Shown here in pieces: positions 5,843 to 24,084 of a stretch of DNA of 64,000 bases. Origin of the DNA: Isosphaera pallida ATCC 43644 (GTDB taxonomy: Bacteria; Planctomycetota; Planctomycetia; Isosphaerales; Isosphaeraceae); contig NC_014962.1 of assembly GCF_000186345.1 (NCBI RefSeq), positions 5,112,450-5,176,449 on the forward strand. Reading direction: 5' to 3'. A program made the position numbers and the translations under genes. The notes below the pieces were generated by a model. The model had not been told where the DNA came from. It did no database searches and saw nothing but the letters and a program-made list of their open reading frames with translations. Positions within the stretch are counted from its first letter, which is position 1, and each line of letters opens with the position of its first letter.

Positions 5843-7402
5843 TCAGCCCGCCGCGATCATCTCGGTCTCGGCGTTGGGAGATGAGGAACCTAAAGGCTCC
5901 GGTGGTTCGTCGGCAATGGGGCCCAGGATCAGGCGTCCGGGACGGTCGCAGGGGGGAGGGCCCAGCAGCCAGCGGCTGAGACCGTTGCCGGGAGGGTTGG
6001 GACGGACTAGGCGGCGAGGACAGCCAAGGTATTCCAGCGCTTCCTCGGCGGCGAGGAAGCCGGAACGGACTGCCCCTTCCATCGTGGCGGGCCAGCCGGT
6101 CGCGGTCCAGTCGCCCGCGAGAAACAGGCCGTCGATCGGCGTCCGCTGAAACGGACGGCGCTTCTCTAGGCCGGGGGTGGCCGAGAAGGTCGCGGCGTGC
6201 TCGGTGACCACGCGCGCGGCGTTCAAACGAGCTTGACCCACCTCGGGCCAGATCGCCGTCAACTCGGCCAACGCCCGGTCGATGATCGCCTGACGGCCCA
6301 TCCCCTTGAGCCCCCGCGAGGCGCTGACGACCAACTGAAGGTATTCCGGTCCCGCGTCGGCACCGCCACCGATCTTCCGGTGGTTGAACACCCATTGAAT
6401 CATCCGGCCCGGCGTGGCGGCGAACTCGATGGGGCAGACCGGGCGATCGAACCAAAGGTGAATGCCGGTGATCGGCGCGGCTTCCATGCTGTTGAGGGTC
6501 TCGATCAAGGTTGAGAGCCGTCGTTGTCCGCGTTCAGGCAACACGGCCGCAACCCGACCAAACGGCAGCGCCAAAATGACCAGATCGGCCTCCACGACGC
6601 GACCATCGCGTAGGGTCAGACCAGCCACCGCCTGCGGTTCGTCTTCAAGTTCGATCCGGCGCACGCTGGTGGAAAGGTGGATCTTGACGCCGCGTGTGGT
6701 CAACCAGTGTTCTAGAGACGGACCAAACACCTCGCCGAGGGGGCCGCGAGGAATCAACGGGCGGTAACCATAGCGGTTCCGCATCAGACCTTCGACAATG
6801 ACCATCCGAGCCAGGCCAGGGTCGATCCGGTCGAGCGATTCGTTGAGCGCGGAGACCAGGATCGGTTCCCAGAACCGCTCGATCGCGTGGGGTGATTGAC
6901 GATGGCGAGTTAACCACGCGGCGAAGGGTTCGTTGGGTCGGAAGTCGGGTCGAAGCGCCAGGCGTGTCACCGCGTAGGCGATGCCCAGCTTGTCGCCCCA
7001 GGTCAGAAAGGGTAAGCGGAACAAGCCGCCCGCCAGGTGGAGAGGCGCGGGCAGGGGGCCGGCCTTAAGCGCTCCGGCGCGGCGATCCGGACCAATCATG
7101 GGGATGCGATCAAATGGCTTGAGGAAGTCGCCGCGGCCGATCGTTTCGAGAAAGGCGATCACATTGACGCAACACCCCAGCGCGATGTGTTGACAGTGAT
7201 CGACGAGTTCGCCGGTGGTTGCGTCGGTGAACGAGCCAGCGCGACCGCCCAGGCGGGGGCGGCTCTCGTAGAGGGTCAGGTTGAGGTCACGTCCGGTCAG
7301 GGCAACGGCGGCGGCCAACCCGGCCAAGCCGCCACCTACGATCGCCACACGCGGCGGGGGAGGCATCCAATCGGCCTTCGGGGTCGCCCACGCCGTGGTC
7401 AT
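5843..7402 (-). CDS. hpnE: Squalene-associated FAD-dependent desaturase HpnE
   Basis: HpnE reduces hydroxysqualene to squalene in the bacterial HpnCDE route. The 519 residues begin with the FAD-binding dinucleotide fold VAIVGGGLAGLAAAVAL (about residues 19-35), followed by the GRAGSF and DHCQH blocks. The ERFWEPILVSALNE motif and the C-terminal GLFLAGDWTATGWPATMEGAV are typical of HpnE and related amine-oxidase-fold desaturases. The start at 7402 avoids overlap with hpnD, whose stop is 46 bp upstream. It is the last gene of hpnC-hpnD-hpnE. A C30 carotenoid desaturase is a weaker alternative, but the two synthases upstream favour HpnE. Confidence 0.85.
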   Translation of the reverse strand: MTTAWATPKADWMPPPPRVAIVGGGLAGLAAAVALTGRDLNLTLYESRPRLGGRAGSFTDATTGELVDHCQHIALGCCVNVIAFLETIGRGDFLKPFDRIPMIGPDRRAGALKAGPLPAPLHLAGGLFRLPFLTWGDKLGIAYAVTRLALRPDFRPNEPFAAWLTRHRQSPHAIERFWEPILVSALNESLDRIDPGLARMVIVEGLMRNRYGYRPLIPRGPLGEVFGPSLEHWLTTRGVKIHLSTSVRRIELEDEPQAVAGLTLRDGRVVEADLVILALPFGRVAAVLPERGQRRLSTLIETLNSMEAAPITGIHLWFDRPVCPIEFAATPGRMIQWVFNHRKIGGGADAGPEYLQLVVSASRGLKGMGRQAIIDRALAELTAIWPEVGQARLNAARVVTEHAATFSATPGLEKRRPFQRTPIDGLFLAGDWTATGWPATMEGAVRSGFLAAEEALEYLGCPRRLVRPNPPGNGLSRWLLGPPPCDRPGRLILGPIADEPPEPLGSSSPNAETEMIAAG

Positions 7403-7448
7403 GTCGGAGAACTCCAGGGATGGTTCAGGATCGCCGTTTGTCAGCGGC

Positions 7449-8444
7449 TCAGGAGGACCAAATCCGTCCCGTCCACCAAGCACGCCCGGCGATTGCGAGT
7501 TTACGCCAACGGGCCACCCGGACCCGCCCTCCCCAGATGTTGTAGTCGCGGCGGACGATTTCACGGAGCAAGGCGTGATAAATCCCCACGATCGCGGCCA
7601 GCACTGGGCGGCCCACCGGGTTGATCAGGTTCGCCAGCGGCGCGGCCTCGCGGTAGAGGGTCTCGGCCCGCTGGGCCTGGAATTCCAGAAGGGCCCGGAG
7701 TTGACGAGGGGCAGGATGGGTCATCTCCGCCAGACTCGCCGGATCGACCCCAAACCGGGCCAATTCGGCGCGGGGGAGGTAGATTCGTCCTTGGCGGGCA
7801 TCCTCTTGAACATCCCGAAGGATGTTGGTCAACTGAAGGGCGATCCCGCATTGCTCGGCCAACCGCACCGCCCGGCCGTCGCGGTTGTCGAAGCCCCAAA
7901 GATGCAGACAAGTCAAGCCGACCGCGGAGGCGACGTGGTAACAATAGGTCCGAAGCGCCTCGAAATCCTCGAAGCCGTGATGCTCCAGGTCCATCGCCAC
8001 TCCGTCGATGACCTCGTGAAGATGGCGTGGGGGGATGGCGTGTCGCCGCACCGTTTCCACCAGGGCCGCCAGGCCAGGCCATGACGAGCCGTGGATGGGC
8101 GGGGGGGGGTCGTGGTTCAAGGCGTGGTCGAGTTGGATGCGCCAGGCGTTCAAGGCGGCGCGACGGCGTTCCAACGGTCCCGGCTGGTCTACCAGGTCGT
8201 CAGTGTGGCGGAAGAAGGCGTAGATTGCGTTCATGCCCCGCCGACGATCCGCTGGCAAAAGTCTGAAGGCATAGGCAAAGTTGCGTGCCTCGCATCGCAC
8301 CACTCGGGAACAGAACTCATGGGAGGCCAGGGTGGCGGCTTGGTCCGAGGCGATGGTTGAAGAGGCCGGCCGCGCCGAGGACACCGCCGACCCGATCGCG
8401 GGCGGGGGAGGAGCCGGAGCCGAAACGGCGCGGAGAGTGTTCAT
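7449..8444 (-). CDS. hpnD: Presqualene diphosphate synthase HpnD
   Basis: HpnD condenses two farnesyl diphosphates to presqualene diphosphate. This trans-isoprenyl diphosphate synthase (331 residues) has the first Asp motif RHTDDLVDQ and the second, QLTNILRDVQEDARQGRIYLP, both needed to bind Mg-diphosphate. The start is the ATG at 8444. It overlaps the hpnC stop as ATGA (8441-8444), which implies translational coupling and rules out the longer frame reading back to 8816. The first 35 residues are Ala/Pro/Ser-rich and not conserved. Taken alone the domain could be a phytoene synthase; its place between hpnC and hpnE decides the call. Confidence 0.87.
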   Translation of the reverse strand: MNTLRAVSAPAPPPPAIGSAVSSARPASSTIASDQAATLASHEFCSRVVRCEARNFAYAFRLLPADRRRGMNAIYAFFRHTDDLVDQPGPLERRRAALNAWRIQLDHALNHDPPPPIHGSSWPGLAALVETVRRHAIPPRHLHEVIDGVAMDLEHHGFEDFEALRTYCYHVASAVGLTCLHLWGFDNRDGRAVRLAEQCGIALQLTNILRDVQEDARQGRIYLPRAELARFGVDPASLAEMTHPAPRQLRALLEFQAQRAETLYREAAPLANLINPVGRPVLAAIVGIYHALLREIVRRDYNIWGGRVRVARWRKLAIAGRAWWTGRIWSS

Positions 8445-9442
8445 GGGCGGGGAACCTGTTTGAGAAGGGTCGAGTCGAGCGTCGGGGGGATTGCAACCCG
8501 TTGGTCTTGGCCTTGGCGTCGTCGGGGCGGCTTGAGCGCCACTTGGGCCATGAGCGCCAATTTGGTCCAACGTCCCACCACCGGTCGCATAGTCCAAACG
8601 TCGTGGTTGCAAGCTTCGATCGCCCGGAGGATCGCCAAGCCACCCAGGCGGAACAGTTCGACGGCCCGATTCCAAGGCGGGCCCAGGCTGGCGGCCAGTG
8701 GTTCGCCCCGTTCGAGATAGGCCCGCGCCTGCGCCACCTTGCGGCTCGACAAGGCGCGGTACGCCGGGGTGTATCGCCGCGCGTGCAAATCCTCGTCGGA
8801 GTAGCCCAGTTCCCAACGGTCAGATCGTGGCAAATAGATCCGTCCGATGTCGAGGTCGCAAGCCACATCCTGCCAGAAGTTAGCCAGTTGAAGGCCAGTG
8901 CAAATCGCGTCCGACCATTCCCGACGCGCCGGGTCGTCGGCCTCGGCCAGCTTCAAAACCAAGCGTCCCACTGGGTTGGCCGAGCGTCGGCAGTAGTCGA
9001 GTAACTGAGCATCGTTTTGATATTCGTAAACATGTTGATCCTGAATGAAGGCGGAGATGAGGTTCTCGAAAGGCTCTAGCTCCAGGTTGAAGCGGGTGAT
9101 CGTGGGAGCCAGCGCCACGAAGACCGGATGACGCGCTGAGGTGGGATCGGCGAAGACCGCCCGCAACTGGTCGCGCCACCAGACCAACAGACGTTCTGAG
9201 CGGGCTGGATCGCCCACTTCGTCCCCCAGGTCATCGGCCCAGCGGCAAAATGCGTAGATCGCCTCCATCCCGGTTCGCGCCTCCTTGGGCGTGAACCAAC
9301 CGATCACCTGGAAATTCTCGTAATGGCTCCGCGCTAAGTGGGCGCAGTACACCTGCGCCTCCGCCAGGTCAGGAGGCCGCGTCGCGCGGGCCAGTGCGTC
9401 GGGACCGTAACGATTGAGGTGATCGGCAAAGCGAACAGACAT
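8441..9442 (-). CDS. hpnC: Hydroxysqualene synthase HpnC
   Basis: HpnC converts presqualene diphosphate to hydroxysqualene. The 333 residues contain the squalene/phytoene synthase motifs FCRWADDLGDE and LQLANFWQDVACDLDIGRIY, plus ARSHYENFQVIGWFTP near the N-terminus, which is characteristic of HpnC. The ATG at 9442 precedes the conserved RFADHLNRYGPDAL segment; the frame extends to 9556 without conserved sequence. It is the first gene of the operon and overlaps hpnD by four bases. No squalene-hopene cyclase adjoins it, but a terpene-cyclase-repeat gene lies at the far right end of the window. Confidence 0.88.
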   Translation of the reverse strand: MSVRFADHLNRYGPDALARATRPPDLAEAQVYCAHLARSHYENFQVIGWFTPKEARTGMEAIYAFCRWADDLGDEVGDPARSERLLVWWRDQLRAVFADPTSARHPVFVALAPTITRFNLELEPFENLISAFIQDQHVYEYQNDAQLLDYCRRSANPVGRLVLKLAEADDPARREWSDAICTGLQLANFWQDVACDLDIGRIYLPRSDRWELGYSDEDLHARRYTPAYRALSSRKVAQARAYLERGEPLAASLGPPWNRAVELFRLGGLAILRAIEACNHDVWTMRPVVGRWTKLALMAQVALKPPRRRQGQDQRVAIPPTLDSTLLKQVPRP

Positions 9443-13813: not shown

Positions 13814-14884
13814 TCAACGAAGGCTCGGACTCGTGTTCGTGATCCAGGGACGTTGGAGGATGGTCAAACGCACCACCCAAGGAACTGAAAAGATCACCAT
13901 CCAAACTGCCATGACAATTCCCATGATGCCAGTCCCACGCAGGATGCCGAAAAGGCCGCCTTCGCTGATGAACGACGCGCCCATGACCAGCGCAAACAAA
14001 ATGGCGTAGGCCAGGGTGAACTCCTTGACGTCGAAATCGAAGGGATGGGACGAGACATCCAGCTTGGGGTCGGAGGCTTTAGGACGGGGTCGGTCGGGGT
14101 CGGCCCCCGCGGGCAGGAAGCCCAGGTCCTGCTCAGCAGCAGGGGCGTCCTCGGCATCGGTCCGAGCGGCTGAACGAGTTAGCCAGGCGTCCAGTCGAAG
14201 TGGCCAAACCGCCCGCTTGGCGGCCTGCTCCGTGGTGGTTTTGATGAGGGGATCGTCCAAACGACGGGATTGCTCAATGAAGACGATGAGGTTCAGGATG
14301 ACCGAGGTGGCCCAAACCACCGCGAAGCTCGCGCCAAAGAGCGTGAGAATGTTGGCCATCATGAGGATATCCCGTTCCTTGGGTATCAGAGGACGAACGC
14401 CAGTTAGAAACGTAAACATGAACATAAAAAAGGCCATTCCTACACCGAGGCTAGTCCAACCGACTGGCGTGGTGCGAACTTTTTGCCGTCGTGGGATCGA
14501 CGACGACACACTTAAGCCCCCTAGCACTTGCAAGACCGCGCCTAGGAACAAGCATCCCAAGATCGCCAGAGCCAGGGTGCGACCACCCAAGTTGAAGAGC
14601 CAGAAAATCGAGCCGATTACGCCAAGCGAGCCGATCACCGCGCCGACGGCTAGTGCCACCAGGCCGGACCCTCGCGGACGCGGCGGCAGGCTTGGGTCCA
14701 GCAAGCTGGGGTCGAACCGCGGTTTGGGCGGGGTGGGACGTGCCGAAAAGCCGTAGGGGTCGTCTTGAGAGGAGCGACCGCGTGGAGTTGGCTCCAGATC
14801 GTCGTCGTTCCACTCTGCGCCGCCGGGACCGAGTCCTTGACCCTGACCGGGTCCGTTGCCGTTGCCGGGATGGTTGCTCGCCAT
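13814..14884 (-). CDS. Unknown six-helix membrane protein, downstream of the lycopene cyclase
   Basis: I do not recognise the family. The 356-residue protein has a disordered N-terminus (about 70 residues, rich in Gly, Asn, Pro and acidic groups). Four membrane helices follow between residues 72 and 210, including GSGLVALAVGAVIGSLGVIG and FGASFAVVWATSVILNLIVF. A soluble loop rich in Asp and Ala comes next, then two more helices at the C-terminus (FTLAYAILFALVMGASFI and MGIVMAVWMVIFSVPWVV). It starts only 22 bp after the crtY stop on the same strand, so it is probably the third gene of a brp/blh-crtY-membrane protein transcript. That context hints at a membrane role linked to carotenoids or phototrophy, but the residues themselves do not show it. 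Confidence 0.6.
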   Translation of the reverse strand: MASNHPGNGNGPGQGQGLGPGGAEWNDDDLEPTPRGRSSQDDPYGFSARPTPPKPRFDPSLLDPSLPPRPRGSGLVALAVGAVIGSLGVIGSIFWLFNLGGRTLALAILGCLFLGAVLQVLGGLSVSSSIPRRQKVRTTPVGWTSLGVGMAFFMFMFTFLTGVRPLIPKERDILMMANILTLFGASFAVVWATSVILNLIVFIEQSRRLDDPLIKTTTEQAAKRAVWPLRLDAWLTRSAARTDAEDAPAAEQDLGFLPAGADPDRPRPKASDPKLDVSSHPFDFDVKEFTLAYAILFALVMGASFISEGGLFGILRGTGIMGIVMAVWMVIFSVPWVVRLTILQRPWITNTSPSLR

Positions 14885-14906: not shown

Positions 14907-16400
14907 TCAGCCCAAGCCCGTGGGGCTTGAGGAACCGGCTGGGTTGACCGACGCCCGCGAAATCAAGGCGTCGTCCACCATACCGAGATACTCCAGCACC
15001 AAGTCGCTCAAGAGGGGTCCCCAGATGGGTCGCGAACGCGCGGCGGCTCGAAGGAAGGGGAGTTTGGGCAACGCCAAAATCAGACTCAGATCATCTCCCC
15101 AATCGGAGGCATCGGTCAGGAACCGCGCTAAGGCATCGGGCTGGGTGCGCTCGAACATTCGCGTGAACAGAGTGGGAACCTGCTCGGGGTGGTCTCGCAG
15201 AACTTGGAGGAAAATCGTGTCGAGGAAGTCGTACTTCCGGGGGGCGACCCGCGGATCGCGCAGACCACGCGCTAGCGCCCGAACCTGGCGTTGAATCCTC
15301 ACAAAAGCGTAACCGCTGGAGGGCCGGGCGGCCCCGCCGGCTAAGCCGATGCGGCGGCAACGCCCCTGGGCGAAAGCTCGTTCCAGACCTACAGGAGGCG
15401 GCGCGGGTTGGGTGTTCATCGGGATCCGACCCGCCTCGGTTTCCAGAATCTCGTAGTCGTCGGCCCGCGCTGCCCATTGTTCGGCCAACGCCTGACGGAT
15501 CGCCTGTTCGTGACGCTCCCGTCCCACCCTGACGCCCGGCGGTAGCAGCATCGTGCTTTCCACCAGGCCGCCTCGTTCCGAGTCGGGCAGCACGTAGAGG
15601 AAATGCGGGCCGCATGACTGGTCGCAACGGAAGTCCATCAGGATCGGCGTCGTCGGGTCGAAACCCACGACTGGTGTCGGATGGGTCAGACGCACCCGCC
15701 AGCCGACGAACTGTTGCACGAGGCCACTCGATCCTTGTTCAAGCTCAACGTTGGTCCGCGTGCCGCGACCGTCGTTCCAGCCGGTCCCCAAGTAGAGACG
15801 GCGGCCCCGCGCCACGCCTAGCGAGGTGATGACCTCGAACCCCTCCTCATCGCCCAGGTCCCGACAGGATTCAACGGTGCGCCCCAGCGCCAGCCGCACA
15901 TTCTCCGCCCGGCTCAGCCGTCCTAGGGTGCGTTGGTAAACGTCGATGGCCCTAAGCCGCAGGTAGCGGTAACGCTTGGAGGCCGCCGTCACGTCCCAAT
16001 CGCTCCCCCCACGGCCACCCCCGGGCGCAACGACCCGCCAACGATCCCAAGCGTGGGTCGCCAGATCGTCGAACGCGGTGCGCTGGACGTTCCAGTAACA
16101 CCAAGTTCGGTCGTTGACGTAATGCGAGCGACGATCAATCAACAAAATCGAGTCCTGGGGCCGATGATCGAGCAACGCCCAGGCCAGACTCAACCCAGCG
16201 GCTCCCGCGCCGACGATCACATGGTCGTAGTCGCGGGGTCGTCCCGAGGCCGAGTCCGGTTCAAGCCAGTCGAACCAGTGGGGAGACTCGATCCGCGTTT
16301 GATCGGAGTTCGGTTCCGTGGTCCGCGGTGGCCGTGTGGGGAGCACCACCGTTGATTCCATCAACGGCCGGTGGAGCGAAGGCAAGGGGGCGGCGATCAT
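14907..16400 (-). CDS. crtY: CrtY-type lycopene beta-cyclase
   Basis: This enzyme cyclises both ends of lycopene to give beta-carotene. The 497 residues carry a dinucleotide-binding start, DHVIVGAGAAGLSLAWALL (GxGxxG at about 64-69), then the family hallmark NDRTWCYW (about 96-103). The RIPMNTQP block, the GLAGGAARPSSGYAFVRIQR block and a C-terminal FERTQPDALARFL segment also fit CrtY cyclases. I used the ATG at 16400; the ATG at 16361 and a TTG at 16460 are alternatives and none has a strong ribosome site. It follows brp/blh by about 110 bp on the same strand, matching the order of reactions from lycopene to retinal. Confidence 0.87.
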   Translation of the reverse strand: MIAAPLPSLHRPLMESTVVLPTRPPRTTEPNSDQTRIESPHWFDWLEPDSASGRPRDYDHVIVGAGAAGLSLAWALLDHRPQDSILLIDRRSHYVNDRTWCYWNVQRTAFDDLATHAWDRWRVVAPGGGRGGSDWDVTAASKRYRYLRLRAIDVYQRTLGRLSRAENVRLALGRTVESCRDLGDEEGFEVITSLGVARGRRLYLGTGWNDGRGTRTNVELEQGSSGLVQQFVGWRVRLTHPTPVVGFDPTTPILMDFRCDQSCGPHFLYVLPDSERGGLVESTMLLPPGVRVGRERHEQAIRQALAEQWAARADDYEILETEAGRIPMNTQPAPPPVGLERAFAQGRCRRIGLAGGAARPSSGYAFVRIQRQVRALARGLRDPRVAPRKYDFLDTIFLQVLRDHPEQVPTLFTRMFERTQPDALARFLTDASDWGDDLSLILALPKLPFLRAAARSRPIWGPLLSDLVLEYLGMVDDALISRASVNPAGSSSPTGLG

Positions 16401-16511
16401 GGGGGACGGCCTCGCCAGAACCAGGGACGGGGGAAGGGACAGAGCAACCACGAACACCAAGCAAGCCGAGTCTTCACTTCGGAGGCGAGTGGGACGGCGT
16501 GGATGGGGGAG

Positions 16512-17609
16512 TCAGACGATCGACCCGCCGGAGCCAACCGGCTTGACCGACCAAACGCCCTGGAATCGATCCATCGCCGCGACCACGATCAGATGGGGAA
16601 TCGTCACCGCGCTAAGAAACGCCAACGCCAGGAAGCCCAGATCGGTCGGCTCCCGAATCCGGTCCCACGCCAACCAACCCAGACCACCCATCAACAGAAA
16701 AGCCGCCGTGTTGGTTGGCCAGGTCCGTTTCAAAAACCAGCCCAAGGTGGCAAGGACGCCGGGACGACGACCAGGCGCAGCTAGGTCGGCAATCCGCTCG
16801 ACATGCCGAAGCGCGTGCCACACATGGAAATAGACACCCATTGCGAGAATTGGAGGCACCAAGGCGAAGCTAGCCCAGAGCAGGGCCGTTTCACCCAACT
16901 CAGCAGCGATGTCGCGTCTCAGGTCAGCTCGTCGGGATGCTAGCGACACTCCACGGATCAACTGGGTCAGAGAGGCCCCGCCCACCAGAAGCCAGGCCGT
17001 CCACCAGGCCGCCGTTCCCTGGGGCAGGGGCGGTGGCGGCGGACCGCCCGAGGCGGTTGTCTGACCCCCGAATCGGGCTAGCGCCTCGCCGAAAAGGTCG
17101 GGGAAGGCTAGAACCGGCAGCACGATTGGCACGCAGCCCCGCGTCAGCAGGAACGCCAAGCGGTCGATCCTGCCGCCGGCCACTCGCAGCGGACGGCTCC
17201 AAACCAGGTCACCTTGGCCAAAATGCAGCGCTGCGGCAATCAGGAACAAGGCCAGAGCCAGGCCTGGTGCCACCCACCAGACAAGGAGGACGGCGGCCAT
17301 GAGCAAAAGGTACCCCGACGCAAACGCCAAATGCGCCTTCAGCGATCCCGACCGATCCCGACCCGATAAACGTCTCAACAACGGCCCAATTTCATGGTCG
17401 AACGCCCCGTGAGGCATACCCAGGACCGCCAGCCCCACGACCCACGGCAACCATTCGACCCAAACTGGCCATGAGCGGATCGGAACCCCCAACGCCTCAC
17501 TCATCCCCGCCGCGATCAAGACGCCAGCCAGAGCCAACGGCCCCAACCACAACGCGATTGAGCCACGCGCTTGGCAATCGAACGTGCTGGGAGAGCGATC
17601 GGCACGCAT
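16512..17609 (-). CDS. blh: Brp/Blh-family beta-carotene 15,15'-dioxygenase
   Basis: This membrane iron enzyme splits beta-carotene into two retinals, the rhodopsin chromophore. The 365-residue protein is all-helical and hydrophobic. It has the family signature GMPHGAFDHE (His at about 67 and 72), LHFGQGDLVW (His 129) and YFHVWHALRHVERI (His 262, 265 and 269), which together supply the iron ligands. The ATG at 17609 precedes the first helix; the frame reads back to 17792 through Pro/Arg-rich sequence that does not look conserved. It is divergent from the rhodopsin and upstream of crtY, so retinal production and the pump are encoded side by side. Confidence 0.9.
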   Translation of the reverse strand: MRADRSPSTFDCQARGSIALWLGPLALAGVLIAAGMSEALGVPIRSWPVWVEWLPWVVGLAVLGMPHGAFDHEIGPLLRRLSGRDRSGSLKAHLAFASGYLLLMAAVLLVWWVAPGLALALFLIAAALHFGQGDLVWSRPLRVAGGRIDRLAFLLTRGCVPIVLPVLAFPDLFGEALARFGGQTTASGGPPPPPLPQGTAAWWTAWLLVGGASLTQLIRGVSLASRRADLRRDIAAELGETALLWASFALVPPILAMGVYFHVWHALRHVERIADLAAPGRRPGVLATLGWFLKRTWPTNTAAFLLMGGLGWLAWDRIREPTDLGFLALAFLSAVTIPHLIVVAAMDRFQGVWSVKPVGSGGSIV

Positions 17610-17884
17610 GACGCTTCGACGCCTTCGACTTGTGACGCATTCCAAAAAACCTGGCCAAGGGCCGCCCGGACGTGGTTCCCCGATAGGAAGGAAAAGGGAT
17701 GAGGGGATCCAAATCGGTGGTGGGTGACAGGTCTGTTTGAACAACGCGAGTCCGACAGGAAGTTTAGACCGGCGGCAACAGCGTCGGTCCAAATTTCTTC
17801 AACGCAGTGCCAATGCCTCAAAACCGTCCAATCCCCTCCGGAATCCCGTTCTAAACGAATTGTCCAAAAAAATCGCGCGGCCTC

Positions 17885-17912
17885 TTGACCGTGGTTTGGA
17901 GACGACTATACG
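17885..17912 (+). promoter_or_regulatory. Candidate sigma-70-like promoter of the rhodopsin gene
   Basis: TTGACC (17885-17890) and TATACG (17907-17912) are separated by 16 bp and read toward the rhodopsin. Transcription would start near 17919 and give a leader of about 280 nt. Hexamers were matched by eye. Confidence 0.45.
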
Positions 17913-17963
17913 AACCAACGGGTCGATCAGACGAGATGCTCCCATTGCATGACGGCCCTCTCA

Positions 17964-18036
17964 ACGGTGAGCGACACAGCATGCCGTATTGACTTCCATC
18001 GAAGTCGAAGTCTTGGAGCATACGGTATCTCACCGT
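17964..18036 (+). promoter_or_regulatory. Long interrupted stem-loop in the rhodopsin leader
   Basis: ACGGTGAG (17964-17971) pairs with CTCACCGT (18029-18036). ATGCCGTAT (17981-17989) pairs with ATACGGTAT (18020-18028) with one G-T pair. GACTTC (17991-17996) can pair with either of two tandem GAAGTC copies (18001-18006, 18007-18012). The left arm has a nine-base bulge between the first two helices. The element lies downstream of the predicted start site, so it would be part of the mRNA; a DNA operator is also possible. Confidence 0.55.
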
Positions 18037-18084
18037 CATCCTCACATGGATGTTGTCGTGCTTGGGAAATAATGCCGTCACCTC

Positions 18085-18117
18085 CGGTTTGTTGGCCTCG
18101 ACCTGAGGTACAAACCG
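18085..18117 (+). promoter_or_regulatory. Second stem-loop in the rhodopsin leader
   Basis: CGGTTTGT (18085-18092) pairs perfectly with ACAAACCG (18110-18117). Inside it CCTC (18096-18099) pairs with GAGG (18105-18108) around a five-base loop. No T-run follows, so it is not a standard terminator. It lies about 80 nt before the rhodopsin ATG. Confidence 0.55.
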
Positions 18118-18199
18118 TAGTGCGCGTTCGTCTGTCTGTGCCTCGCTTCACCACCCGATCTGTGCCAGTCCGTTCACGTCTTGGTATTGGAGTCTGACA

Positions 18200-19126
18200 A
18201 TGACGACGAGCTTGCTCACCGCAGGTTTGCTGCTGTTCTTCGCTCAGGAGGGCAGCACGGCTGCTCCGGCTCCCGAAGCTCCTGCTGCAGCGCCCGCTGC
18301 GACGGAAACCTCGGCGGCCCCGTCCAAGGAGCCTGGCCTGCCGACCCTGACCCCCGCTCAGTACAGCACTGTGTACAACATGTTTTCTTTCACCATCGCC
18401 TCGATGGGTGCCTCGGCTCTGTTCTTCTTCCTGTCGCGCAACCAGTTGGCTCCCAAGTATCGTCCGGCGATGATGGTGTCGGGCTTGGTGGTTTCCATTG
18501 CCTGCTACCACTATTTCCGAATCTTCGAGAGTTGGGAAGCGGCTTACGAATTGACCGGGGGCCAATACGTACCGACGGGCGCGGTCTTCAACGACGCCTA
18601 TCGTTACGCCGACTGGCTGCTGACCGTGCCTCTGCTCATGGTTGAGTTGATCGCGGTGTTGGCGTTGCCCAAGGGCGAGGGTCGTGGTTTGCTAGTCCGT
18701 CTGTCGGTGGCCGCCTTCTTCATGATCGCGCTGGGTTACCCCGGCGAGATTGCCAAGTACGAAGCCGGCGCCCAGTACTGGATTTTCTTCGTCCTGAGCA
18801 TGATTCCGTTCCTGTACATCCTCTTCGTGCTTCTGACCGAATTGACCAAGTCGCTGGAGCGTCAGCCCGAGAACGTGCGGGGCTACATCTCGGCTGCCCG
18901 CCTCATTGTGCTGGTCTCGTGGTGCTTCTACCCGATCGCCTACCTGGCCTCTGGCGTGGGTGGTCTGTCGGGTGCTCAGGCTGAGGTTGGTCTGCAAGTT
19001 GGCTACACCATTGCCGACATCGTTGCCAAGGCGGTCTTCGGTGTGTACATCTACTTTATCGCCCGCACCAAGAGCGAGAACGAAGGGTACGAAGTGTCGG
19101 CTCAGCCAGCCGTCGCCACCGCCTAA
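18200..19126 (+). CDS. Xanthorhodopsin-clade light-driven proton pump
   Basis: This 308-residue microbial rhodopsin should pump protons outward across the membrane. Helix C reads RYADWLLTVPLLMVE: D138 is the proton acceptor, T142 the middle residue and E149 the donor, the DTE triad of proton pumps. The helix G segment TIADIVAKAVFG holds the retinal lysine K277 and counter-ion D273. H104 (CYHYFRIFESW) matches the acceptor-linked His of proteorhodopsin and xanthorhodopsin. L146, the colour-tuning position, predicts green absorption. F197 stands where xanthorhodopsin has the Gly that admits a carotenoid antenna. The first 46 residues form a hydrophobic, signal-like start and an Ala/Pro linker absent from xanthorhodopsin. 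TTGGAG lies 7 nt before the ATG. A strong terminator follows, so it is probably monocistronic. Confidence 0.96.
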   Translation: MTTSLLTAGLLLFFAQEGSTAAPAPEAPAAAPAATETSAAPSKEPGLPTLTPAQYSTVYNMFSFTIASMGASALFFFLSRNQLAPKYRPAMMVSGLVVSIACYHYFRIFESWEAAYELTGGQYVPTGAVFNDAYRYADWLLTVPLLMVELIAVLALPKGEGRGLLVRLSVAAFFMIALGYPGEIAKYEAGAQYWIFFVLSMIPFLYILFVLLTELTKSLERQPENVRGYISAARLIVLVSWCFYPIAYLASGVGGLSGAQAEVGLQVGYTIADIVAKAVFGVYIYFIARTKSENEGYEVSAQPAVATA

Positions 19127-19222
19127 TCCTGACCGTCTCTGCCTGACAACGGGCTGCTGGTCTTCGTGGGGTTGATCGCTCTCCGAAGAACCTCCGCGTG
19201 TTTCCAGCTCGGTCGTTGATGC

Positions 19223-19269
19223 GATCAGCGCGAGTGGGTTTTACAACCTGCCCGCGCTGATCGTCTTTT
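19223..19269 (+). terminator. Intrinsic terminator after the rhodopsin gene
   Basis: A perfect 10-bp stem, GATCAGCGCG (19223-19232) with CGCGCTGATC (19253-19262), is followed by GTCTTTT. A small GGTT/AACC helix can form inside the loop. It ends the rhodopsin transcript about 100 bp after the stop codon. Confidence 0.85.
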
Positions 19270-19407: not shown

Positions 19408-20655
19408 ATGTGTCATCTGATGGGAGGGCGTTGGTTAGGTCTGCTGAGCCTCTTGGCCTGGTCGTGGGGATCGACCCACGCCGCCCAAGGAGGAGGGGAC
19501 GATCTTGCGGGATCACTCGACAAACTTCGCCTGAATCAAATCCAGGTGATCGGCACCCACAACTCGTATCACCTCGCGCCCGAGCCGGCCTTGATGGAGG
19601 CAATGGCCAAGGTGGTGGGGGTGGAACGGATCAAAGGCTGGGATTACACCCATCGTCCCTTGCCGGAGCAGTTCACTCGTTTGGGGATTCGCCAAATCGA
19701 GTTGGATGTCTTCGCCGATCCTGCCGGTGGGTTATTCGCCAACCCGCTTTCCCGCGTCCTTTTGGGTGGGGCGGGCGTGAACCCGCAAGGCGACGCCCCA
19801 GGCAGTCCCAATGCCGACGATGCGGCTAAGGTGACGGAGGCTCTGCGGTTGCCCGGCTTCAAGGTGCTTCATGTGCAGGATCTCGACCATCGCTCGACGG
19901 TCACGACCTTGGAGCAAGCATTGGCTCAGGTGCGGGGATGGTCGCGCGACCATCCCCGGCATGTGCCGATCCTCATCCTGCTGGAGTTGAAGGATCAGAC
20001 GATCGCCGGGTTGCCCACTCGCCCGATCCGATTCGACGAGCCACTTCTGGATCAGATTGACGCGGCGCTTCGACAGCACTTTCCACCCGGTACGATTCTG
20101 ACCCCTGACGATCTGCGGGGCCATTTTGCCGACCTCCCCACCGCCCTGACGATGCGGGGTTGGCCGACGCTGGCTCAAGCGCGCGGTAAGGTGCTGGCAG
20201 CTCTGGACAACGAGGGCAGTTTGCGCGATCTCTATGTAAAGGGCCACCCCGCGCTCAAAGGACGGATGATGTTCGTCTCGGCGGATGGTCCCGAGTCGCC
20301 CGAGGCGGCCTGGTTCAAGATCAATGACCCGGTCGGCCAATTCGATCGCATCCAGAACCTGGTTCGCGCTGGATTCCTGGTCCGAACCCGAGCCGACGCC
20401 GAGACCCGCGAGGCGCGAACCGGCGACATCTCCCGACGCGACCGGGCGCTGGCTTCAGGCGCGCAGTTCATCAGCACCGATTACCCCGAGGCCCGCGTCG
20501 AATGGTCGCCTTACCAGGTACGCTTGCCGGGCGGGATCGTTGCGCGTCCCAACCCAGTCAGCGCGGCCGACCTTCCCGGCGATCTTGACGTGGAAGGAAG
20601 CTTTGTTGGATCGCCTTCCCCCTCCGCTCCGCCAACCGGAAGCCCTCCGCGATGA
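19408..20655 (+). CDS. Secreted PI-PLC-C1-like (calcium-dependent) phosphodiesterase
   Basis: This resembles the Ca2+-dependent phosphoinositide-specific phospholipase C1 family, which uses a TIM barrel to cleave phosphodiesters. The first 28 residues form a signal peptide (GLLSLLAWSWGSTHA), so the enzyme is exported. Active-site blocks are visible: QVIGTHNSYH (first catalytic His), IRQIELDVFAD (metal-binding Glu/Asp) and FKVLHVQDLDH (second His). A later LILLELKD block and FISTDYPEAR fit the barrel's end. The ATG at 19408 has GAGGA about 10 nt upstream; a GTG at 19390 would add six residues. Its stop overlaps the arsS start as ATGA, so it is the first gene of a coupled four-gene operon. The substrate is unknown. 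Confidence 0.78.
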   Translation: MCHLMGGRWLGLLSLLAWSWGSTHAAQGGGDDLAGSLDKLRLNQIQVIGTHNSYHLAPEPALMEAMAKVVGVERIKGWDYTHRPLPEQFTRLGIRQIELDVFADPAGGLFANPLSRVLLGGAGVNPQGDAPGSPNADDAAKVTEALRLPGFKVLHVQDLDHRSTVTTLEQALAQVRGWSRDHPRHVPILILLELKDQTIAGLPTRPIRFDEPLLDQIDAALRQHFPPGTILTPDDLRGHFADLPTALTMRGWPTLAQARGKVLAALDNEGSLRDLYVKGHPALKGRMMFVSADGPESPEAAWFKINDPVGQFDRIQNLVRAGFLVRTRADAETREARTGDISRRDRALASGAQFISTDYPEARVEWSPYQVRLPGGIVARPNPVSAADLPGDLDVEGSFVGSPSPSAPPTGSPPR

Positions 20656-21773
20656 CAAATCCGTTGCCTCCACCCAACCTGGTGCGCCTCGAATCTCCCG
20701 CGGGGTTCACCACGTCGGGTCGCCACCCGTCTCCCCGGCTGTCGCTGGCGAGGCGGGCCGCCCCGTTGGCTTCGCCCCAAGAGCAAATCCACCTGCTCAA
20801 CCACACCGCTGCCCCCGAGTTCGCCGAGGTCTTGAAGGCGCGGGGATTGCCACCCCTCAAGGCATCGGGCGTTGCCGTTTTGCAACTCAACCTGGGCAAA
20901 CTCTGCAACCAGACCTGTTCGCATTGTCATGTCGATGCGGGACCCGATCGCCGTGAAGTCATGAGCCGCGCTCATTTGGAGTATGCCTTAGAGATTCTCA
21001 AGCGAACAGAGATCGGCACCGTCGATTTGACCGGAGGCGCGCCGGAGATGAACCCGCATTTCCGCTGGTTCGTTGCTGAGGCGCGCTCGTTGGGACGACG
21101 GGTGATCAACCGTTGCAACCTAACGATCCTGAACGCGCCGGGGTTCACCGACCTTCCCGAGTTTTTGGCCGCGCATCAGGTCGAAATTGTCGCCTCGCTG
21201 CCGTGCTACCTGGAGGAGAACACCGATCGTCAGCGGGGCGACGGGGTTTTCGTCCGTTCCATCGCCGCGCTCAAGCGACTCAACGCTTTGGGTTACGGCC
21301 AGCCCGCCGAGCGGGGCGGTTTGCCTCTGACCCTGGTGTACAACCCGATTGGCCCAACCCTGCCTCCCTCCCAGAACGCACTGGAGACCGATTATCGCCG
21401 TCAGTTGTCCGAGCGTTTCGGAATTGTCTTCACCCGTTTGTTCACCATTACGAACCTGCCGATCAGCCGTTTTCTTGAGGAACTGGTGCGGGAGGATCAG
21501 TTGGATACCTACATGAGTTTGCTCGTGAACTCGTTTAATCCGGCGACGGTGGAGGGGGTCATGTGCCGCGAGACCGTCTCAGTCAGCTGGGATGGTCGGT
21601 TGTTCGATTGCGACTTCAACCAGATGCTCGACCTTGAGACCGACTCGGCGGTTCCTAGGCGTCTCGACGAATTCGACGCGGAGGCGCTGGGAAGCCGCCG
21701 CATCGTCACGGGCAAGCATTGTTTTGGCTGTACAGCTGGGGCGGGATCGAGTTGTCAAGGCGCGTTGGTATGA
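20652..21773 (+). CDS. arsS: Arsenosugar biosynthesis radical SAM protein ArsS
   Basis: ArsS-type enzymes transfer the 5'-deoxyadenosyl group of SAM to dimethylated arsenic in arsenosugar synthesis. The 373-residue protein has the iron-sulfur motif CNQTCSHC (C85, C89, C92; Cx3Cx2C) followed by HVDAGPDR, a family hallmark, and DLTGGAPEMNP for SAM binding. The C-terminal DUF3641 region ends in HCFGCTAGAGSSC (C357, C360, C368), likely a second cluster or substrate site. Some homologues are selenoproteins; this one uses Cys throughout. The start overlaps the PLC-like stop and the stop overlaps the GT2 start, each by ATGA. No arsM methyltransferase lies nearby. Confidence 0.85.
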   Translation: MTNPLPPPNLVRLESPAGFTTSGRHPSPRLSLARRAAPLASPQEQIHLLNHTAAPEFAEVLKARGLPPLKASGVAVLQLNLGKLCNQTCSHCHVDAGPDRREVMSRAHLEYALEILKRTEIGTVDLTGGAPEMNPHFRWFVAEARSLGRRVINRCNLTILNAPGFTDLPEFLAAHQVEIVASLPCYLEENTDRQRGDGVFVRSIAALKRLNALGYGQPAERGGLPLTLVYNPIGPTLPPSQNALETDYRRQLSERFGIVFTRLFTITNLPISRFLEELVREDQLDTYMSLLVNSFNPATVEGVMCRETVSVSWDGRLFDCDFNQMLDLETDSAVPRRLDEFDAEALGSRRIVTGKHCFGCTAGAGSSCQGALV

Positions 21774-22543
21774 CCCACGATTTGCCGCCGGTGGCGGTGG
21801 TGTTGCCGACCTGGAACGAGGCCGATCAGATCGGCCGGGTTCTGGCGAGTTTGTCCCGCCAGACAGTTCGACCCGCGCACGTCGTCGTGGTAGACGGTGG
21901 TTCCACTGACCACACGGTGTCCCTGGCCCGCCAGGCGGGAGCCGAGGTCATCGAGGTGGCGGAGGATCACCGAGGCCGAGGCAATCAAATCGCTGTGGGG
22001 GTCGCGTCGTTGCCGCGTGAATTTGACCTGGTGTTGATCGCTCACGCCGACATGGAGTTCCCTCCCGACGCGGTCGAGGCGGTGGCGCGTGCCTTCGCCG
22101 CCGCCGATCACCTTGCCGGAGGCTGCCTGGGACATCGGTTCGACGCGCCCGAACGGTTCTTCCGGGCGCTGGAGTGGTTCAACCGGTTGCGAGCTGTTTG
22201 GGGCGTGCCGTTTGGCGATCAAGCGCAGTTCTTCCGCCGCTCCGCCTTGGAGACGGTAGGGGGCTTTCCTTCTCAGCCGATTATGGAGGATGTCGAACTG
22301 GCGTTGCGGTTGCTGCGTCTCCGTTCGTTCGTAGCGTTGGAGCGTCCAGTGCGGGTCTCGACCCGCGACTTCCGACGTCACGGCATTGGGGGGGCGATGA
22401 TCCGCTACGCGGTCTTTCTCACCGCCTACGCCTTGGGCGGGCCGTCAGCGTGCCAAGCGATTCATGCCCGCTACTACGCTCATCATCAAATGAACAAACA
22501 TATAAATATTTCCTCAAGCCATTCGATCCCTGGGGCGTCATGA
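21770..22543 (+). CDS. rSAM-associated family 2 glycosyltransferase (TIGR04283-like)
   Basis: This GT-A fold glycosyltransferase (257 residues) matches the 'transferase 2, rSAM/selenodomain-associated' group that travels with ArsS. It starts with VAVVLPTWNEADQIGRVLAS, followed by HVVVVDGGSTDHTVSLA (nucleotide binding) and LIAHADMEFPPDA with the DxD-like metal site. QAQFFRRSALETVGGFPS and IMEDVELALRL supply the acceptor-side and catalytic acidic residues. There is no signal peptide. It probably glycosylates the arsenoribose product, an inference from context. The last 20 residues lie in AT-rich DNA and look non-conserved. It overlaps both neighbours by ATGA. Confidence 0.8.
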   Translation: MTHDLPPVAVVLPTWNEADQIGRVLASLSRQTVRPAHVVVVDGGSTDHTVSLARQAGAEVIEVAEDHRGRGNQIAVGVASLPREFDLVLIAHADMEFPPDAVEAVARAFAAADHLAGGCLGHRFDAPERFFRALEWFNRLRAVWGVPFGDQAQFFRRSALETVGGFPSQPIMEDVELALRLLRLRSFVALERPVRVSTRDFRRHGIGGAMIRYAVFLTAYALGGPSACQAIHARYYAHHQMNKHINISSSHSIPGAS

Positions 22544-24084
22544 GCGTTGCCGTACTTGCGGGCGATCCCTACGACGAGGCGTTGATCGCCCAGGTCCATC
22601 CTCGGGATTGGGTCAATCCCACCCCAGCGCCATGGTACAACCTCGTGGTGTTAGGAGCCGGCACCGCGGGGCTGGTCGCCGCTGGAGGCGCAGCGCAGCT
22701 GGGAGCACGGGTGGCATTGGTCGAAGAGGACCTGATGGGAGGCGATTGCCTCAACGTCGGCTGTGTGCCGAGCAAGGCGTTGATCCACTCGGCGCGTGCG
22801 GCTTGGGCGTTGCGGGAGGCGGAAGCGGCGGGAATCTTGGTCGATCGTTCGGCCTGGCGGGTTGAAGGCCGGGCGGTCTTCGAGCGTTTGCGCAGGCTGA
22901 GGGCGTCAATCGCGCCCCATGACTCAGCGCGACGCTTTGCTGACTGGGGCGTGGATGTCTTTCTGGGTCGAGGACGTTTCACCGGGCCGGATCGTCTGGA
23001 GGTCAACGGCGCGACCTTGCGGTTTCGGCGGGCAGTATTGGCCACCGGGGCCGGTCCGCGACCATTCGAGGTTCCAGGGGCCGATCGAGTCGAAATTCTA
23101 ACCAATCACACCGTGTTCGCCTTGACTGAACTCCCGCCCCGTCTGGTCATCGTGGGCGGCGGACCGATCGGTTGCGAACTCGCTCAGGCGTTCGCGCGTT
23201 TAGGTTCGAAAGTGACGTTGGTAGGCCGCGGGCCTCGGCTGTTGTCCCGCGACGATCCGGAGGCCGCTGATCTGGTGGCCGCCGCATTGCGGCGCGACGG
23301 GGTTGCCCTACGGTTGGGAAGTCGGATCGAACGAATCGAGAGTCCCAACGGCTTGACCAAACGGCTGACGATTCGACACGAACACGGCGACCAAACAGAG
23401 ACGATCGACGCTGAAGCGATCCTCGCCGCGGTCGGCCGCGCTCCGCGGGTGGAAGGGATTGGTTTAGAGGCGGCGGGGGTCGCATTCGACCCGGTGCGTG
23501 GGGCGATCGTGGACGATTATTTGAGGACCACCAACCGCGCGATCTTCGCCGCGGGCGATGTGGCCTCGCCAGACAAGTTCACCCACGCCGCCGAAGCCCA
23601 GGCCCGTCTGGTGATCCGCAACGCCCTGTTCGCGCCGTGGGGACTTGGCATGGGACGAGCCAGCCGTCTGGTGATTCCCCATTGCACCTACACCGATCCC
23701 GAGGTCGCCCAGGTCGGCCTCACCGAGGGCGAAGCGATCGCGCGAGGCTTCAAGCTTCGGGTGTTGGTTCACGAGTTCGCCGAAGTCGATCGCTCGGTGG
23801 TTGAAGACGAAACCGCAGGGTTCGTCAAGTTGATCGCTGCGGCGCGGGGGGATCGGATTTTGGGCGCGACGATTGTGGGTCGTCACGCCGGCGAACTCGT
23901 GGGGACTGTCACCCTGGCATTGACCAAAGGTTTGGGACTGGCGACGTTGTCGCGTTTGATTGTTCCCTATCCCACCCGCTCCGATGCCTTGCGTCAGGCC
24001 GCTGGCGTGGCAGAACAGGCGTTCCTTTTCTCGCCGGGTGTACATCGCTGGACCCGACGTTGGTTGAGTTGGGTTCGCGGTTGA
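22540..24084 (+). CDS. FAD-dependent disulfide oxidoreductase (mercuric reductase-like)
   Basis: A 514-residue class I pyridine nucleotide-disulfide oxidoreductase. FAD binds at LVVLGAGTAGLVAAGGAA; the redox disulfide is in GGDCLNVGCVPSKALIH; NAD(P)H binds at LVIVGGGPIGCELAQAFA; and the second FAD block is RAIFAAGDVAS. The C-terminus reads IVPYPTRSDALRQAAG, so the His-Glu dyad of glutathione reductase is replaced by Tyr and Asp, as in the MerA-like branch. It lacks the N-terminal metal-binding domain and C-terminal Cys pair of true mercuric reductase, so Hg(II) is an unlikely substrate. The ATG at 22540 overlaps the GT2 stop. It is the last gene of the ArsS operon. Confidence 0.82.
   Translation: MSVAVLAGDPYDEALIAQVHPRDWVNPTPAPWYNLVVLGAGTAGLVAAGGAAQLGARVALVEEDLMGGDCLNVGCVPSKALIHSARAAWALREAEAAGILVDRSAWRVEGRAVFERLRRLRASIAPHDSARRFADWGVDVFLGRGRFTGPDRLEVNGATLRFRRAVLATGAGPRPFEVPGADRVEILTNHTVFALTELPPRLVIVGGGPIGCELAQAFARLGSKVTLVGRGPRLLSRDDPEAADLVAAALRRDGVALRLGSRIERIESPNGLTKRLTIRHEHGDQTETIDAEAILAAVGRAPRVEGIGLEAAGVAFDPVRGAIVDDYLRTTNRAIFAAGDVASPDKFTHAAEAQARLVIRNALFAPWGLGMGRASRLVIPHCTYTDPEVAQVGLTEGEAIARGFKLRVLVHEFAEVDRSVVEDETAGFVKLIAAARGDRILGATIVGRHAGELVGTVTLALTKGLGLATLSRLIVPYPTRSDALRQAAGVAEQAFLFSPGVHRWTRRWLSWVRG

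Follow-up and report, generated by a model that had tools for sequence, protein, structure and literature searches.

Three genes were found to form the locus under study within the window, a 64,000-nucleotide stretch of the Isosphaera pallida ATCC 43644 chromosome. A xanthorhodopsin-type rhodopsin of 308 amino acids was encoded on the forward strand (18200–19126), and the reverse strand carried a gene for a Brp/Blh beta-carotene 15,15'-dioxygenase (blh, 16512–17792) together with one for a CrtY-type, FAD/NAD-binding protein of the lycopene-cyclase family (crtY, 14907–16460). The longest reading frame of blh opened at TTG 17792, but its upstream residues did not align with those of relatives, hence the true start was probably ATG 17609 (MRADRS...). 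The start of crtY was uncertain, with ATG candidates at ~16400 and ~16361.

The divergent genes blh and rho were separated by an intergenic region of 590 bp, counted from the probable blh start (17610–18199), which presumably contained both promoters. A Shine-Dalgarno-like GGAG was read ahead of the rhodopsin ATG (18189–18192, +). A structured RNA leader had been claimed upstream of the rhodopsin gene by an earlier, sequence-only reading of this DNA. This element was rejected, as in the stretches folded the stability was no better than that of shuffled sequences (z of −1.63 and −1.35), no Rfam match to the leader was obtained, and the intergenic DNA showed no similarity to that of the relatives. 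The strong hairpin of the locus was located downstream of the rhodopsin gene instead (19221–19264, +; folding z −6.3); it was followed by TCTTTT and was a likely rho-independent terminator.

The rhodopsin matched the Pfam family Bac_rhodopsin (PF01036, 6.5e-39). When solved structures were searched, the best match was xanthorhodopsin 3DDL (E 3.5e-83), and the nearest relatives were xanthorhodopsin, psXR, Gloeobacter rhodopsin and the XR-type Kin4B8. The AlphaFold model comprised seven helices (mean pLDDT 86) and fitted the structures of these relatives with an rmsd of 1.0–1.4 Å at 51–57% identity, so that the profile, the fold and the retinal lysine K277 all identified a type-1 rhodopsin. The Asp/Thr/Glu triad was represented by the counterion D138, T142 and the proton donor E149, with H104 beside the counterion, and L146 was the green-tuning residue; D138-T142-E149, K277 and L146 were exactly the residues claimed before. 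Salinibacter ruber xanthorhodopsin (PDB 3DDL) had the fold, the triad, the His and the Lys in common with the protein and was 55% identical to it in the structural comparison, and Gloeobacter rhodopsin (PDB 6NWD, 54% identity) was likewise an XR-type proton pump of the DTE type. At the N-terminus (window 18200–18340), an extension of ~45 residues was observed, in which a hydrophobic stretch was followed by an Ala/Pro-rich sequence of low confidence; the same form was not seen in the family relatives.

In the phylogenetic check, two trees placed the rhodopsin among XR-like proteins of planctomycetes and Fimbriimonadales, all of them D-T-E, and far from a separate planctomycete D-T-K group, with both trees being midpoint-rooted only and the branches around the window protein weakly supported. 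A single clade of Isosphaeraceae rhodopsins was not recovered, yet it was not rejected either (p-AU 0.116). The families, residues, tree and model agreed with the earlier reading of the locus as a pump accompanied by a retinal-forming enzyme and a lycopene cyclase. DTE rhodopsins with a carboxylate donor are an established proton-pump group. Since this donor is kept, a proton pump was the natural reading of the protein. It is predicted to be light-driven, and its pumping, direction, colour and expression are all presumed from the sequence.

Overall, the rhodopsin was closest to the antenna-binding xanthorhodopsins, and carotenoids give the organism its salmon colour (PMC3072084), both of which would suit a dual-chromophore protein with a bound carotenoid. 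In xanthorhodopsin, however, Gly156 makes the opening (fenestration) for the carotenoid (PMC13093654), and here this antenna glycine was replaced by F197, while M201 was found at the position of T160. This closed fenestration was overlooked in the earlier reading. Gloeobacter rhodopsin has G178 and binds keto-carotenoids, whereas its G178W mutant loses carotenoid binding and continues to pump, with stability and pumping improved (PMC9151804). The rhodopsin of I. pallida resembles this laboratory mutant and may be regarded as its natural counterpart, with the reservation that the evidence from PMC9151804 concerns W rather than F at that position. Among GR homologs, Trp and Phe account for 24% and 2% of the residues at the fenestration position, respectively (PMC9151804), therefore the closed state was not new in itself.

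The enzymes for antenna carotenoids were also searched for in the genome. No family match to a CrtZ-type hydroxylase was obtained, and no convincing CrtW/CrtO was present. The sole FA_desaturase match resembled a DesA fatty-acid desaturase, and a distant CrtO-like oxidoreductase (L097) scored 114 bits (cut-off 1000), which leaves a ketolase, and thereby a ketocarotenoid, possible. Hence, antenna binding as in S. ruber is not expected, and a dual-chromophore xanthorhodopsin was considered very unlikely. Because the antenna glycine was replaced, F197 (with M201) should fill the carotenoid fenestration, and the pump is predicted to run on retinal alone; some carotenoid-binding modes independent of this glycine may exist.

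The fenestration residue was W in seven other Isosphaeraceae with the region covered, and G in 17 XR-like proteins of other planctomycetes. At least three changes between the open and closed states were needed on the tree. The closed antenna pocket, which appears to be family-wide and unlike that of other planctomycetes, is the one point of interest of the module. I. pallida is a hot-spring planctomycete, and the closed pocket was also considered as a hot-spring trait; glycine is, however, retained at this position in the Thermus rhodopsin 5AZD, therefore temperature alone does not explain the closure.

Phototaxis in a heterotroph was first known from I. pallida (PMC3072084), and no report on the receptor was found in the literature. 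The rhodopsin could control phototaxis either as a sensory photoreceptor or by a motility signal fed by its pumping, and it is the sole rhodopsin of a genome in which two MCP-type transducers are present. Such control was judged improbable, as E149, a carboxylate donor typical of pumps, is retained, neither a transducer nor a Che gene adjoined the rhodopsin gene, nothing linked the protein to signalling, and blh accompanies the rhodopsin gene also in relatives not known to be motile. Moreover, two phytochromes of the genome (L142 and L143, one of them a histidine kinase with a receiver) would be equally good receptors. No BLUF protein was found in the genome. We would thus give only a small chance to the proposal that an antenna-less xanthorhodopsin provides the light signal for phototaxis, directly or through the proton motive force. 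The module could serve as an energy source, or as a receptor, in this bacterium, whose phototaxis has long been known and is apparently unexplained.

Blh, claimed before as a dioxygenase with His signatures on the opposite strand, was confirmed by PF15461 (5.7e-69) and by the curated profile TIGR03753 (158 bits, cut-off 95), and its motifs HGAxD, HFGQGD and WHxxRH were conserved among the relatives. The lycopene cyclase claimed beside it was upheld at the family level, with 144.6 bits for PF05834 against a cut-off of 23.4. The CrtY protein was, however, below the curated cut-offs of the equivalogs TIGR01789 (59.2 against 215.2 bits) and TIGR01790, and its function as a lycopene beta-cyclase is presumed from the position of its gene beside blh.

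A search of the genome for crtB/crtI had been proposed, with the absence of any phytoene synthase/desaturase named as one refuting outcome. A crtE-crtI-crtB-type cluster was found on the chromosome away from the window (L103:3277-8126), and that objection falls. The cluster contained genes for a crtE-type polyprenyl synthase, read as a GGPP synthase, a CrtI-family phytoene desaturase and a squalene/phytoene synthase, with a distant CrtC-like gene in the same row. The desaturase scored 621 bits against a cut-off of 238. An apparent in-frame TAA in crtI was dismissed, as the reading frame was intact and encoded 521 amino acids. The crtB-type protein passed no equivalog cut-off and is putatively a phytoene synthase, as judged from its neighbours. 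On paper, the chain from lycopene through beta-carotene to retinal was complete, with the enzyme products assigned provisionally. The CrtC-like gene reached 47 bits (cut-off 400) and points to hydrated acyclic carotenoids in addition to the beta-carotene branch.

The 45 genomes searched in the order all belonged to one family, Isosphaeraceae; the rhodopsin was present in 9 of them, and Blh in the identical nine; the chance of such a coincidence would be 1.1e-9 if the two were independent. The divergent arrangement of rho and blh-crtY was retained in all six relatives with enough contig context. The gene order, which the sequence-only reading had regarded as special, is for this reason a family trait and standard for Isosphaeraceae. 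The rhodopsins of other Isosphaeraceae (L003-L009) shared the closed fenestration and, where the context allowed, the divergent layout, but had W in place of F, and their spacing between conserved codons of Blh and the rhodopsin was shorter (408–583 bp, compared with 887 bp in I. pallida). In xanthorhodopsin modules from planctomycetes outside the family (e.g. L118, L121, L126, L133), the rhodopsin gene also adjoined blh, and often crtY; unlike here, the order was co-directional, rho-blh(-crtY), and glycine was kept at the fenestration. Retinal phototrophy in Isosphaeraceae thus takes the form of a compact module, gained or lost as a unit.

The module was absent from 36 of the 45 searched genomes and is therefore dispensable in the family, which would also fit a decaying or unexpressed locus without a current role. 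Such decay was regarded as most improbable, as all three reading frames were intact with the catalytic residues retained, a strong terminator-like hairpin followed the rhodopsin gene, and the rhodopsin and Blh were retained or lost jointly.

A third, unspecified gene had also been attributed to the module. The likeliest candidate, an open reading frame of 356 amino acids downstream of crtY (13814–14884, −), had no Pfam match, and no homolog adjoined the module in any relative. The flanking DUF2254 and PI-PLC-like genes were rejected as members, since they were not near the module in the relatives.

It was considered highly probable that the locus is a self-supplying retinal phototrophy module with a pump operating on retinal alone. 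Lycopene would be supplied by the crtE-crtI-crtB-type cluster, cyclised to beta-carotene by CrtY and cleaved to retinal by Blh. Retinal would then bind the opsin at K277, and green light would drive outward proton transport through the D138/T142/E149 relay, a contribution to the proton motive force of an aerobic heterotroph. The filling of the antenna fenestration by F197 and M201 would leave the pump without a carotenoid antenna. In other respects the module is a well-formed, ordinary xanthorhodopsin module of a known type.

The accessible text of a metagenomic report on the Mushroom Spring mat describes a xanthorhodopsin-like gene and a gene for a carotene-cleaving enzyme in the Isosphaera-like OTU-83, and in that text no residue analysis, gene layout or remark on the fenestration is given (PMC5459899). 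The word rhodopsin is absent from the I. pallida genome paper (PMC3072084) and from a four-genome comparison of Isosphaeraceae; earlier mentions may exist, e.g. in subscription literature.

Several further observations were made in the relatives and in the window. A second, apparently broken Blh copy was found in a family relative (G007, contig C128:5381-5999) as two fragments with one in-frame TGA. Other planctomycetes (L113, L114, L115, L116, L119, L120 and L122) carried a second rhodopsin type, D-T-K, with Lys at the proton-donor position, and its gene adjoined blh in all but L120 within the stretch examined. The D-T-K motif is as in Exiguobacterium rhodopsin. Elsewhere in the window (7223–9331, −), at a distance of ~5.6 kb from the retinal genes, an HpnE-like oxidoreductase gene was grouped with two genes of the squalene/phytoene synthase family; the group resembles the HpnC-HpnD-HpnE route to hopanoids and squalene. 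Directly after the retinal locus (20652–24084, +), an ArsS-type radical SAM protein (TIGR04167, 450 bits), a family-2 glycosyltransferase and a pyridine-nucleotide-disulphide oxidoreductase were encoded, a possible arsenosugar cluster.
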